NCBI GenBank assembly: GCA_021798335.1
Contig: JAJZMI010000087.1
Coordinates: 1-46,190 of the forward strand
Origin: Pseudomonadota bacterium
Lineage (GTDB): Bacteria > Pseudomonadota > Gammaproteobacteria > Steroidobacterales > Steroidobacteraceae
Reading direction: 5' to 3'
Length of the DNA stretch: 46,190 nucleotides
Of this stretch, positions 5,088-11,405 are shown piece by piece. The notes under the pieces are model-generated. The model saw nothing but the letters and a program-made list of their open reading frames with translations. It did no database searches and had not been told where the DNA came from. The position numbers and the translations under genes are program-made. Every line of letters starts with the position of its first letter. Positions within the stretch are counted from its first letter, which is position 1.

Positions 5088-5291
5088 GTGGCGGCCAAGT
5101 ACTACACGCATTTCTTGACCGGCGGCGCGGGAGCCGAGCCGGTGGCCGCGCATGAATGGAGCGGGGTGGTCGAGCTGCGTGAGCCGCTGCGGGACCGGCG
5201 CGAGCTCGGCGAATTGCGCGTGTTGCTGGCGGTCAATTTCAATCTGGACTCGGAGGACATACGGATTCTTCATTGGGCGCGCCTTCACTGA
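5088..5291 (+). CDS. Small hypothetical protein (67 aa)
   Basis: MAAKYYTHFLTGGAGAEPVAAHEWSGVVELREPLRDRRELGELRVLLAVNFNLDSEDIRILHWARLH; GTG start 6 nt after TACACT; followed by a strong intrinsic terminator. Confidence 0.55.
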   Translation: MAAKYYTHFLTGGAGAEPVAAHEWSGVVELREPLRDRRELGELRVLLAVNFNLDSEDIRILHWARLH

Positions 5292-5415: not shown

Positions 5416-6639
5416 ATGAAGCGCGCCAACATCAGAGTCATCTTCGCGGTCTGTCTGTCCGTCGCCGGGCTTGCGGGCGCTCCGTGCCCGCGGGCCGCCG
5501 CCGCCCCCGCCGCTTTGCCGGTACCGGTCCAGACCGAGCGGTTCGTGCTCGCGCCGGGACAGGAGATGATCGGCCGCGTGCAGATCGTGCGGATCAAACC
5601 GCACCAGGTCCTCGCCGACATCGCCCGCCTGTTCGATGTCGGCTACGACTCGATCAAGCGCGCCAATCCCAAGGTCAACCCGTGGCTCGCTCCGGTGGGC
5701 ACGCGCGTGATCGTGCCGACGCAGTTCATCCTCCCGGATGCGCCACACGTGGGTATCGTGGTCGATATCGCCGCGATGCGGCTGTTCTACTACCCGCCGC
5801 ACGCGCCGGGGCGGCCGCAAGTCGTCATCACGCATCCGGTCGGGATCGGCAGGCTCGGCCACCCCACGCCGACGATGGTGACACGCGTCACCTGGCACCA
5901 GGCGCATCCCGCGTGGATCGTGCCGCGCTCGATCCTCGCCTCGCATGCCCGCCGCGGCACGCCGCTCCCGCGGGTGGTCGCGGCCGGTCCGGACAACCCG
6001 CTCGGCAACTACGCACTGCACCTGAGTTATCCGGAGATCCTCATTCACGGTACCGACAGACCGGCCGGAGTCGGACGGCGCGTCAGCCACGGCTGCATTC
6101 ACCTGTACCCGGAGGACATCCGACAGCTCTTCAAGATGGTGCCGAACGGCACGCCGGTGCGTGTCGTCAATCAGCCGTTCCTGTTCGCCTGGCAGAACGG
6201 GCGCCTGTACATGCAGGCCTACGGTGCGTTGCAGGATGACAAGCGGCCGTGGAAGACGGACCCCACGCTGCTGAGGCGCATGTTGCCCCGCCGGTGGGTC
6301 ACCGACCTCACGCGCTCGGACGAGAAGATCGATTGGACGCGGGTGCGGCGCCTGGTGGACGATCCCAGGGTCGTGCCGCTGCCGGTTTCGGGCCGGGGCC
6401 CGGTGCCCGGGGGAATGGTGGCGACCCTGGTGCAAAACCGTCTGCCCCTGGGGTCGGCGTGGAATGGCCGGACGCATCTGCCGCTCACGACCGCCCAATT
6501 CGACAAGGTTCTGAACCAGATCCGTTCGAGGGCGACGCCGAAGGACCCCGCGGCCGCCGATCCTCCCGGAGCCGCGCTCACCGGCAAGGTGTCCGCGCGG
6601 CGCGCCGTCCAGAGGCTCCGGTCACACCGGGCGCTGTGA
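5416..6639 (+). CDS. L,D-transpeptidase (YkuD/ErfK family) with signal peptide and LysM-like segment
   Basis: N-terminal signal peptide; LFDVGYDSIKRANPKVNPWLAPVGTRVIVPTQ (LysM-like); catalytic region ILIHGTD...GRRVSHGCIHLYPEDIRQLF. Confidence 0.88.
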   Translation: MKRANIRVIFAVCLSVAGLAGAPCPRAAAAPAALPVPVQTERFVLAPGQEMIGRVQIVRIKPHQVLADIARLFDVGYDSIKRANPKVNPWLAPVGTRVIVPTQFILPDAPHVGIVVDIAAMRLFYYPPHAPGRPQVVITHPVGIGRLGHPTPTMVTRVTWHQAHPAWIVPRSILASHARRGTPLPRVVAAGPDNPLGNYALHLSYPEILIHGTDRPAGVGRRVSHGCIHLYPEDIRQLFKMVPNGTPVRVVNQPFLFAWQNGRLYMQAYGALQDDKRPWKTDPTLLRRMLPRRWVTDLTRSDEKIDWTRVRRLVDDPRVVPLPVSGRGPVPGGMVATLVQNRLPLGSAWNGRTHLPLTTAQFDKVLNQIRSRATPKDPAAADPPGAALTGKVSARRAVQRLRSHRAL

Positions 6640-6708
6640 GGCTCCGCACGGCGGCTCTTGTGTTACAGTCGCGGGGTATCGAAAAGAACAACATTGGGGC
6701 GACACATC

Positions 6709-8295
6709 GTGGCTGAGGGCGGTCCGAGCTTCTCCCTCGAGTACGACGAGACTGAGCCGGCGGCCGCGTATCGCCCGCCGGTGACCGCCTTCGTCGGCCG
6801 CACCCTCAAGGGGCCGCTCAACCGAGCGGTGCCGGTGGCGAGCTTCACCGAGTTTCAGCAGATCTTCGGCGGCTTGTGGCAGCCCTCGAGCCTGTCGTAC
6901 GCCATCGAGCAGTTCTTCGCCAGCGGTGGCGGCCAGGCTCTGGTGGTGCGCGTCGCCAACGGTGGGCATGCGCCGACCGTGACTCTGCCGGCGGGCGCCG
7001 AGGTGTTGCGGCTGATGGGCCTGCAGCCGGGCTCGCGGGAGTACCTGCGGGCGTCCGTGGATTACGATGGGATCGCCGAGAGCGAAGGGCTGTTCAATCT
7101 TGTGCTGCAGCGGGTGCGTGCAGCCGGCTCCGAGCGGGTGGAGGACCAGGAGATATTCCGCCGGGTCTCGCTGCAGCCGGACTGCGAGCGGTTCATCGTC
7201 ACTGTGCTGCAGCGCTCGCAGCTGGCGCGAGCGGTTGCTCCGCTGCCGCAACGCCGCCCGGACCGCACGGGGCCGGGGGCAGGCGGATTCTCGGTCGGCT
7301 ACGTCGCGTCGAATTCCGATGGCGATGACGGCGGGCCCCTCACGGACTACGACGTGATCGGATCGGCGGCCGATGGCACGGGATTGTTCGCGCTGCGCAC
7401 CGAGGTTTTCGATTTCCTCTGTATTCCGCCGCTCTCCCGCGAGCAAGACGTCGGTCTCGGTACCCTGCTGGTCGCGGCGCGTCTGTGCCGCGAGTGTCAT
7501 GCGTTGCTGATCGTCGATCCGCCGAGCGACTGGACCTGCCCGCAGGAGGCGATCGAGGCGATGCGCAACTGGCCATTCCGCAGTGACCACGCCGTCCTGT
7601 ACTACCCCAGGTTGCGCGCCTTCGACCGGCTGCGCGGCCGGCACGAGACCTTCGCCTGCTGCGGTGCAGCCGCGGGCTTGCTCGCGCGCGCCGAGGCGTA
7701 CCGGCCGCTCGGGAGCCGCGATGACGAGGCGGTGCTGCGCGCCGGGCTGCTGCCGGCGGTCGAAGTCTCGCCGGCGCAGCGCGTGCGGCTCGCCCAGGCG
7801 GGTATCAACACTCTGGTGGCGGTCCGTTCCCCCGATATTCCGCCGGTGAGCGCGCGTACGCTCGCCACGGGCGGCAGCGGCTCGCCCGACTGGAGATTCC
7901 TCTCCGCCCGGCGTCTGGCGCTGCGCATCGCGGCCAGTGTCGAGCGCGGGACGCGTTGGATGCTGTTCGAGCAGAATGCGCCCGTCACCTGGGCACGCGG
8001 CCGCTCGCTCGTGGATGCCTATCTGGCGCGATTCGCGGCCGAGGGCGCGTTTGCCGGCGCCTCGGCGCAGGAGCGCTACTTCGTCGTATGCGACGAGCGC
8101 GTCAACCAGCCCGATTCGGTTGCCTTGGGCCGAGTCAACCTTCTGTTCGGCATCGCCGCGCGGCGTGCCGGGGAGTTCGACACCTGGCTGGTCAGCCACC
8201 AGCCGGCCGCCAGCCGTGCCCGGCCGGTCTCGGTCAACCGCCTGGCGACCCGCCCGTCGCGCGAGCAGCCCGCCGAGGCGGTGATGGGTCACTAG
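6709..8295 (+). CDS. Contractile phage tail-sheath-like protein (solitary)
   Basis: N-term RPPVTAFVGRTLKGPLNRAVPVASFTEFQQIFGG...LSYAIEQFFASGGGQALVVRVANG; C-term PPVSARTLATGGSGSPDWRFLSARRLALRIAASVERGTRWMLFEQNAPVTWARGRSLVDAYLARFAAEGAFAGASAQERYFVVCDERVN, matching the tail sheath family layout (gp18-like). Start GTG 6709 preferred over the TTG at 6658. Confidence 0.82.
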   Translation: MAEGGPSFSLEYDETEPAAAYRPPVTAFVGRTLKGPLNRAVPVASFTEFQQIFGGLWQPSSLSYAIEQFFASGGGQALVVRVANGGHAPTVTLPAGAEVLRLMGLQPGSREYLRASVDYDGIAESEGLFNLVLQRVRAAGSERVEDQEIFRRVSLQPDCERFIVTVLQRSQLARAVAPLPQRRPDRTGPGAGGFSVGYVASNSDGDDGGPLTDYDVIGSAADGTGLFALRTEVFDFLCIPPLSREQDVGLGTLLVAARLCRECHALLIVDPPSDWTCPQEAIEAMRNWPFRSDHAVLYYPRLRAFDRLRGRHETFACCGAAAGLLARAEAYRPLGSRDDEAVLRAGLLPAVEVSPAQRVRLAQAGINTLVAVRSPDIPPVSARTLATGGSGSPDWRFLSARRLALRIAASVERGTRWMLFEQNAPVTWARGRSLVDAYLARFAAEGAFAGASAQERYFVVCDERVNQPDSVALGRVNLLFGIAARRAGEFDTWLVSHQPAASRARPVSVNRLATRPSREQPAEAVMGH

Positions 8296-8347: not shown

Positions 8348-8926
8348 ATGAGTGATGCAGTGCCTTCGGCCGAGGAGCACCGCGGCGCGCCGGTCGCGAG
8401 TGTCCCGCAGCGGCACGTCGTGTTTTCGCATGGCCAGGCGAGCGGACCGTGGGGGCGCAAGATCACCGCGCTCGCCGAAGTGGCCCGCGGCGAAGGATAC
8501 GAGGTCCATTCGGTCGATTACCGCGGGCTGGATGCGCCCCGGGAGCGCATCGCCCGGCTTGCCGAGTACTGCAAGGAACTGAGCGGGGAGCTGGTGCTGG
8601 CCGGCTCGAGTCTCGGCGGCTACGTGACCGTAGCCAGCGCCTCGGTCCTGCACGCGCGTGGCGTCTTTCTGATGGCGCCGGCGCTGTATTTCTCGGATCT
8701 GCCGCCGCTGCGCTCCGGCATCGTCGATTGTCCCGCGGCGGTGGTGCACGGCTGGGGCGACCAAGTCGTGCCTTACGAGCACAGCGTGCGATTCGCTCAG
8801 GGCTCGCGCGCCGCGCTGCACCTGCTCGACAGCGATCACAATCTGCACAACCAGATTCGCTACCTCCAGAATCTATTCGAGTACTTCCTCATTGCGCTCG
8901 ATCTGCCCGCGCCGGGCCGCGAATAA
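8348..8926 (+). CDS. Small alpha/beta hydrolase
   Basis: VVFSHGQASGPWGRKITALAE...LVLAGSSLGGYVTVASA...VVHGWGDQVVPYEHSVRFAQ...LLDSDHNLHNQI; nucleophile elbow GSSLGG. Confidence 0.8.
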   Translation: MSDAVPSAEEHRGAPVASVPQRHVVFSHGQASGPWGRKITALAEVARGEGYEVHSVDYRGLDAPRERIARLAEYCKELSGELVLAGSSLGGYVTVASASVLHARGVFLMAPALYFSDLPPLRSGIVDCPAAVVHGWGDQVVPYEHSVRFAQGSRAALHLLDSDHNLHNQIRYLQNLFEYFLIALDLPAPGRE

Positions 8927-8978: not shown

Positions 8979-11405
8979 ATGAGCTGGCTGTTGCATCGAG
9001 TACTGGCACTTTGGGTGCGCTACAAGATCCTCCCGGAGGACGGTGAGGCTCGCCTGCGCGAGCGGCGGCGTCCGGTCTGTTACGTGCTCGAGCAGCGCAG
9101 CGCGGTCGATCTGGCGGTGCTGCAGAACGTCTGCGAGCGAGTGCATTTGCCCAGGCCGCGCAGGCGGCGCTTGCGCCGTCGGGGCGAGCGGCCCTCGTAT
9201 CTGTATCTCAGCCGCGTGCGCGGCTTCTGGAACGAGCGTATCGATCGGCGACCGCCGCCACAGATCGAGCAGCTGTTGCGCCTGCTCGAGGCCGATCCCG
9301 ATGCGGACTTCGACCTGGTGCCGGTGTCGGTCTATTGGGGCCGCGCGCCACTGCGCGAGAAATCGTGGCTGCGCCTGCTGCTTGTGGAGAACTGGGCACT
9401 CTCCAGCCGCGTGCGCAAATTCCTGCAGGTGCTGATCAACGGCCGCGACACGCTGGTCGAATTCAGCGAGCCGGTCTCACTGCGCAGCCTCATCGGACAA
9501 GACAGCGGGCTCGCGGTGCGCAGCCGGCGCATCACCCGCGCGCTGCGCGCGCAGTTCGTGCAGCGGCGCGCGGCCCGTATCGGTCCGGATCTGTCCCACC
9601 GGCGCACGGTGGTCACCCGGGTATTGCGGACCAGCGCCGTGCGTGCCGCCGTCGTTCAGTTGATGCGGGAAAAAAAGATCACGCGTCGTGCCGCGCTGCG
9701 CGAGGCGGCCGGCTACGCCAACGAGATCGCCGCGAATTACTCGCACGCGTTCGTGCGTTTCCTCGAGCGGGTGCTCACCTGGCTGTGGAACCGGCTGTAC
9801 GACGGTGTGACCGTGGGGCATCTCGAGACGCTCGAGCGGGTCGCGCAGGGGAACGAGATCATCTACGTGCCCTGCCACCGCAGCCACATGGATTATCTGC
9901 TGCTCTCGTACGTCATCTACGTCAACGGCTATGCGGTGCCGCACATCGCGGCCGGCGTGAATCTGAATCTGCCGGTGGTCGGGCGGTTCCTGCGCATGGG
10001 CGGAGCCTTCTTCATCCGCCGGCGCTTTCGCGGTAACGCCCTGTACACCGTCGTGTTCATGACGTATCTGGCGGCCATCATGGCGCGCGGGCATTCGCTC
10101 GAGTACTTCATCGAGGGGGGACGCAGCCGCACCGGTCGGCTGCTGCAACCCAAGACCGGCATGCTGTCGATGACCGTACGCAGCTACCTGCGCGAGCCGC
10201 TGCGCCCGGTGGTGTTCGTGCCGGTGTATTTCGGCTACGAGCGCATCATGGAGGGCAGCACCTACGTCGGCGAGCTCTCCGGCAAGCCCAAGGAAAAGGA
10301 GAGCGTCCGCGGCCTGGTGCGCTCGCTCGGCAAGCTGCGCGAGCGCTTCGGGCGTGTGCACGTCAATCTGGGCGAGCCGATCGCGCTCGCACAGGTTCTG
10401 GCGCAATCCGGGCCTTGGCCGGAACGGACCCCCGAGGCGGAGGCGCGCGCCGCGCGTGTCGGTGCGGCCGTGGAGGAGCTCGCCGCCCGGATCATGCGCA
10501 ACATCAACTCGGCCGCCGCGGTGACGCCGGTCAACCTGCTGGCGATGGTGCTGCTGGCCATGCCACGCCAAGCGCTGCCCGAGATCGATCTGATCCGCCA
10601 GATCGATTTATATCGGGCGCTGCTCGGCGGAGTGCCCTACAGCGAGCGGGTCACCGTGACCGAGCTGTCGGGTCAAAAGATCATCGCCTACGGCGAGGCG
10701 ATGAAGGTGCTGCAGCGGCAGGACCATCCCTCGGGCGATGTGCTGCACATGAGCGATGAGAGCGCGGTCCTGGCCGCGTACTTCCGCAACAACGTGCTGC
10801 ATCTGTTCGCGATGCCCTCCCTGCTGGCGTGCGTGTTCCTGAGCAACGCCGAAGTGACGCACGAGGAGATGCAGCGCCTCGGGGGGCGCATCTATCCGTA
10901 TATCGCCGCGGAACTGTTCCTGCGCTGGAACGAGGCGGAGGTGCCGGACGTGGTGGCGCGCGTTCTTGCCGAGCTGGCCCGCCACGGCCTGATCGAGCGG
11001 CACGCTGCACGCGGCGTGTGGCGGCGGCCGCCGCCCTCGAGCGCGCAGGCGATGCAGCTGTCCATTCTCGCGCAGGCGACCCTGCAGACCATCGAGCGGT
11101 ACTATCTTGCGATTGCACTGCTGCTGCAGGCGGGCTCGGGGACCATCAATCAGGCGACGCTCGAGGAGCGCTGCCAGCTCGCCGCGCAGCGCATCGCCGT
11201 GCTGTACGGGCTGAACTCCCCGGAATTCTTCGACCGATCCCTGTTCGCCAATTTCATCGATCTGCTGCGCCGGCGTGGCGTGATCCGCGGCAACGGTACC
11301 GGAACGCTCGAGTTCGACACGGTGTTGATGCAGGTCGCGGACGATGCGCAATTCGTCCTCAGCGAGCAGATCCGCCACAGCATTCTTCAGGTCACCCACG
11401 TGTGA
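8979..11405 (+). CDS. plsB: Glycerol-3-phosphate 1-O-acyltransferase
   Basis: IIYVPCHRSHMDYLLLSYV...GGAFFIRRRFRGNALYTVVF...LEYFIEGGRSRTGRLLQPKTGMLSMTVRSYL...FVPVYFGYERIMEGSTYVGELSGKPKEKES. Confidence 0.95.
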   Translation: MSWLLHRVLALWVRYKILPEDGEARLRERRRPVCYVLEQRSAVDLAVLQNVCERVHLPRPRRRRLRRRGERPSYLYLSRVRGFWNERIDRRPPPQIEQLLRLLEADPDADFDLVPVSVYWGRAPLREKSWLRLLLVENWALSSRVRKFLQVLINGRDTLVEFSEPVSLRSLIGQDSGLAVRSRRITRALRAQFVQRRAARIGPDLSHRRTVVTRVLRTSAVRAAVVQLMREKKITRRAALREAAGYANEIAANYSHAFVRFLERVLTWLWNRLYDGVTVGHLETLERVAQGNEIIYVPCHRSHMDYLLLSYVIYVNGYAVPHIAAGVNLNLPVVGRFLRMGGAFFIRRRFRGNALYTVVFMTYLAAIMARGHSLEYFIEGGRSRTGRLLQPKTGMLSMTVRSYLREPLRPVVFVPVYFGYERIMEGSTYVGELSGKPKEKESVRGLVRSLGKLRERFGRVHVNLGEPIALAQVLAQSGPWPERTPEAEARAARVGAAVEELAARIMRNINSAAAVTPVNLLAMVLLAMPRQALPEIDLIRQIDLYRALLGGVPYSERVTVTELSGQKIIAYGEAMKVLQRQDHPSGDVLHMSDESAVLAAYFRNNVLHLFAMPSLLACVFLSNAEVTHEEMQRLGGRIYPYIAAELFLRWNEAEVPDVVARVLAELARHGLIERHAARGVWRRPPPSSAQAMQLSILAQATLQTIERYYLAIALLLQAGSGTINQATLEERCQLAAQRIAVLYGLNSPEFFDRSLFANFIDLLRRRGVIRGNGTGTLEFDTVLMQVADDAQFVLSEQIRHSILQVTHV

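Follow-up and report, generated by a model that had tools for sequence, protein, structure and literature searches.

A homologue of the contractile sheath, the sleeve protein of phage tails and bacterial injection machines, has been retained without the rest of the machine by most members of an order of environmental bacteria, and was presumably taken over for a different job. The gene lies in the 46,190-nt stretch of DNA analysed here (the window), and its product, as judged from sequence and profile comparisons, is a full-length contractile-sheath homologue. Its relatives in the order form one clade, occur in near-universal single copy and in a fixed gene order, evolve under purifying selection, stand without tube and baseplate J genes, and show a changed pattern of constraint. 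We take this as probably the outcome of an ancient domestication of the sheath of a contractile injection system (CIS), in which selection as a contractile lattice was lost. It is likely, in our judgement, that the result is a near-core, order-wide protein made from a contractile sheath, used outside any machine and owing a new function to the former insertion domain. We found no description in the open-access literature of a contractile sheath that an entire order retains by itself. If the reading is true, the sheath fold can be useful where there is neither a tube nor contraction, and annotators should be warned not to take a lone "phage tail sheath" gene as a sign of a prophage or a CIS.

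The gene and its neighbours are arranged as follows:

5416 to 6639, + strand: YkuD L,D-transpeptidase (PF03734, E=9.9e-21), the syntenic upstream neighbour
6709 to 8295, + strand: the solitary contractile-sheath homologue, with a product of 528 aa read from GTG
8348 to 8926, + strand: alpha/beta hydrolase, a frequent downstream neighbour (Pfam, locus comparison)
8979 to 11405, + strand: plsB-type glycerol-3-phosphate acyltransferase, a frequent downstream neighbour (Pfam, locus comparison)

The sheath reading frame is open throughout, and the GTG at 6709 is in frame, at a start position common to relatives. Searched as a single protein, the product stays below the curated Pfam cut-offs for PF17482 (21.7 bits vs 26.9) and PF04984 (17.4 bits vs 31.4), has no match in NCBIfam, and matches the PHROG tail sheath with E=1.9e-32. 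A family profile built from 25 members matches sheath proteins exclusively in the PDB, with the Streptomyces CIS sheath 8bky at the top (E=7e-75, about full length). The AlphaFold2 model has low confidence (pLDDT 53.5) and is too weak for residue mapping, yet the top ranks of a Foldseek search with it are all sheath entries (best E=9.5e-17). The product does not belong with TssB/TssC, the type VI secretion sheath, since the Pfam and PDB searches return only tail and CIS sheaths. No signal peptide is apparent by eye. The preliminary description had presented an intact, tail-sheath-like gene with an L,D-transpeptidase, an alpha/beta hydrolase and plsB as neighbours; the family profile confirms the sheath homology, although the single protein misses the Pfam cut-offs, and the neighbours were correctly named, as Pfam shows.

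To describe the distribution of the gene, we used 249 genomes of the order with a completeness of at least 90%, the window's own genome excepted. The sheath was matched in 212 of them (about 85%) and in 55 of 62 genera, almost always as one copy. We read about 207 as true members, since five of the matches are either weak or due to other sheaths. Among 60 relatives the match is found in 53 (same-genus genomes, 35 out of 36), and the frame is open in nearly all of about 200 genomes. The gene is thus no fragment lacking orthologues. Purifying selection acts on it, with a dN/dS of about 0.2; measured against the window's gene within the genus, the ratio ranges from 0.05 to 0.24, with one distant pair at 0.44. 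The locus is an old fixed position and not a mobile island. Of 39 order loci, drawn from six families, 30 have a codirectional L,D-transpeptidase upstream of the sheath, in most cases next to it or separated by a single gene, and at most about 6 kb away. A natural set of losses is provided by genus g292, of the same family as the window, where 12 of the 13 genomes seen, mostly of 1.8-2.7 Mb, are without the solitary sheath.

Tail partners were searched with three models only, for the gp19-type tube, baseplate J and Pvc16_N, a CIS marker. The tube model had no match within the window, and none of the three had a match in the window's own genome, which is 80% complete. This bears out the earlier claim of a sheath without tube or baseplate and sets the locus outside the eCIS, with no tube gene in the cluster or the genome and neither baseplate J nor Pvc16_N. 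The same models found a tube in 11 of the same 249 genomes, baseplate J in 5 of the 60 relatives and Pvc16_N in 3. A gp19 tube lies near the sheath in 0 of 79 order loci (a count that includes some places fetched twice) vs 22 of 23 CIS loci.

The sheath might still serve a tail whose tube and baseplate are elsewhere in the genome or too diverged for the models, and the incompleteness of the window's genome and the small choice of models leave room for this. Yet six single-contig genomes that carry the solitary sheath (G058, G445, G455, G461, G475 and G571) have neither a gp19 tube nor baseplate J, and the absence is thus not an effect of missing contigs. The models also detect the tubes of the nearest CIS relatives easily, and they recover tube, Pvc16_N, baseplate J and the systems' own sheaths in G005 (same genus), G042 and G044. 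A hidden tail is therefore improbable. Two of these genomes, G005 and G042, carry the solitary sheath besides the complete system; in the first, the full CIS cluster is at locus L027 (G005:C96), where tube, Pvc16_N and baseplate J genes accompany a separate sheath gene.

The phylogeny separates the solitary sheaths from those of known machines. Of the 55 sheaths placed in a tree, the 27 order-level solitary members form one clade (100/100), within which members of the same family are grouped, and this clade stands apart from every tube-linked sheath. The nearest sheaths outside the order, among 370 genomes of the class, belong to CIS-like clusters in which a gp19 tube gene follows immediately downstream, and a sample of the phylum held nothing equally close outside the order. 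An annotated relative on a Streptomyces plasmid is likewise upstream of a gp19 tube gene, followed by a DUF4255 gene and an ATPase. By profile and tree, the closest known systems are the single-sheath CIS (Streptomyces coelicolor CIS, PDB 8bky, 8bl4, 9gtp), homologous over the full length, together with similar CIS clusters in Gammaproteobacteria (L095-L105, L108) and on plasmids (L118-L121). Their genes adjoin a gp19 tube and other CIS genes and encode sheaths with strictly conserved arms and C-domain, whereas the window's sheath has no such partner and an altered pattern of constraint. The contracted sheath of Halogeometricum borinquense (PDB 9ezm) ranks first among the structural matches of the weak model and third by sequence, but it was solved as a contracted sheath assembly. 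The sheaths of PVC/AFP and of T4/pyocin share the common core, give weaker profile matches and differ in belonging to multi-gene tails. Other sheaths without a nearby tube gene are found at L040 (G056:C3), L111 (G051), L113 (G044:C210) and L128 (G750). Of these, L040, L111 and L113 do not group with the solitary clade (the tree did not include L128), and tail-less sheaths may therefore have more than one origin.

A decaying remnant of a prophage or CIS would explain why no tail partners are left and why the single protein scores low in Pfam. It is contradicted by the frame kept open under purifying selection, the fixed locus and the single old clade, and we regard it as having a negligible chance of being correct. 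For a prophage remnant in particular, we found no similar phage record for the protein, and no phage neighbours, decay or patchy presence at the locus; with one clade, purifying selection and matches in 212 of 249 genomes, this reading is refuted. The term "domesticated" used in the preliminary description is upheld by a gene conserved without a tail and vertically kept under purifying selection.

The distribution of constraint along the protein indicates what selection now retains. The parts of the gene, with residues numbered from nt 6676, are:

6721 to 6777, + strand: N-terminal arm (residues 16-34), nearly unconstrained in the window's genus
6778 to 6960, + strand: N-terminal part of the sheath core, the best conserved part across the order (relative conservation 1.29)
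6961 to 7380, + strand: insertion (outer) domain, relative conservation 1.15 vs 0.55 in tube-linked sheaths
7381 to 8115, + strand: core domain with the PF04984 and PF17482 matches (Pfam, profile, conservation)
8116 to 8211, + strand: C-terminal arm, which has diverged order-wide and remains under constraint within the genus

In contractile sheaths, the core, made of N- and C-terminal parts, provides tube contact and assembly, and added domains have other roles (PMC9230969). Working sheaths strictly conserve both arms and the C-domain; in the solitary clade, conservation relative to the group mean is lower in the N-arm (0.60 vs 1.52 in tube-linked sheaths), the C-arm (0.70 vs 1.43) and the C-domain (0.87 vs 1.46). 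The relative conservation of the insertion domain in the clade is reached in 4 of 482 circular shifts, and the domain has order-wide near-invariant residues (R125, D129, D131, Q145 and Q158, same numbering). Column conservation correlates (Spearman) at 0.59 between halves of the solitary clade, at 0.74 between halves of the tube-linked group and at 0.12-0.21 across the two, groups that are unequal in divergence (mean identity 36% and 54%). Within the window's genus, the N-arm has a dN/dS of 0.66 vs 0.07 in tube-linked sheaths. Other observations argue against a non-lattice reading: within the genus, the C-arm is under constraint (dN/dS 0.08-0.13) and the insertion domain evolves no more slowly than average, single pairs from families f2, f7 and f11 have no clearly free N-arm, and the strand pattern G-[IVL]-x-V-x-E of this arm is kept in most other families. 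A loss of both arms is thus only half upheld, given the constrained C-arm.

These data bear on whether the protein still polymerises. Even with no tube present, its arms could drive self-assembly into rings or long tubes with a cytoskeletal or scaffold role. Sheath proteins do form polysheaths without other tail proteins (PMC6357053), and the constrained C-arm and the persistent N-arm strand pattern agree with such a scaffold. Against it, the regions most conserved in working sheaths, arms and C-domain, are here below average, and in the window's genus the N-arm evolves almost neutrally; we hold a polysheath scaffold to be possible but rather unlikely. The general logic of domesticated structural proteins suggests another role, in which the sheath copy would poison the assembly of incoming contractile tails, of myophages or CIS, by joining their sheaths. 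A near-universal, single-copy, vertically inherited and fairly slow-evolving gene does not fit such interference; neither do the lack of similar phage records and the relaxation of the arms needed to join a foreign lattice, and we think it very improbable.

We therefore lean, with some reserve, towards a CIS sheath that separated once from its machine, was inherited vertically with another job and is no longer selected as a contractile lattice. The parting from tube, baseplate and ATPase would date from the origin of the order or close to it, and the sheath would have passed down since as a chromosomal gene. Its product would be a cytosolic protein of sheath fold, active as a monomer or in small assemblies. 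A conserved partner may bind to a working surface formed by the N-terminal core and the former insertion domain (about residues 85-225 of the 528 aa). We consider a protein that works through these two parts, soluble or in small assemblies, more likely than a polysheath scaffold. Closed genomes carrying the solitary sheath exist, so deletion and pull-down are possible in principle.

The sheath gene starts 69 bp after the L,D-transpeptidase and ends 52 bp before the hydrolase, which plsB follows, and a weak terminator-like hairpin at 6632-6653 bears on a possible operon with the L,D-transpeptidase. The latter is missing nearby in 9 of the 39 order loci, including congeners that retain the sheath; it is therefore not an obligate partner, and obligate pairing was rejected. 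The order L,D-transpeptidase, sheath, hydrolase thus holds in its first part for most loci, and the association with hydrolase and plsB is looser. The envelope role proposed earlier is not supported, gene order being its sole link, and it is a guess that the syntenic L,D-transpeptidase connects the protein to envelope or peptidoglycan work. Further genes recur around related loci: LemA-like and TPM-domain genes at a greater distance upstream, and on the downstream side the hydrolase, plsB and a hydantoinase-like gene (the LemA and hydantoinase names were given by eye). In L022-L025 and similar loci, the L,D-transpeptidase comes after the LemA-like gene and two TPM-domain genes, a place they do not occupy in the window. 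There, a 67-aa protein without Pfam match (5088-5291, + strand) is encoded between a greA/greB-type gene and the L,D-transpeptidase, and it recurs in 13 related loci (cluster c10).
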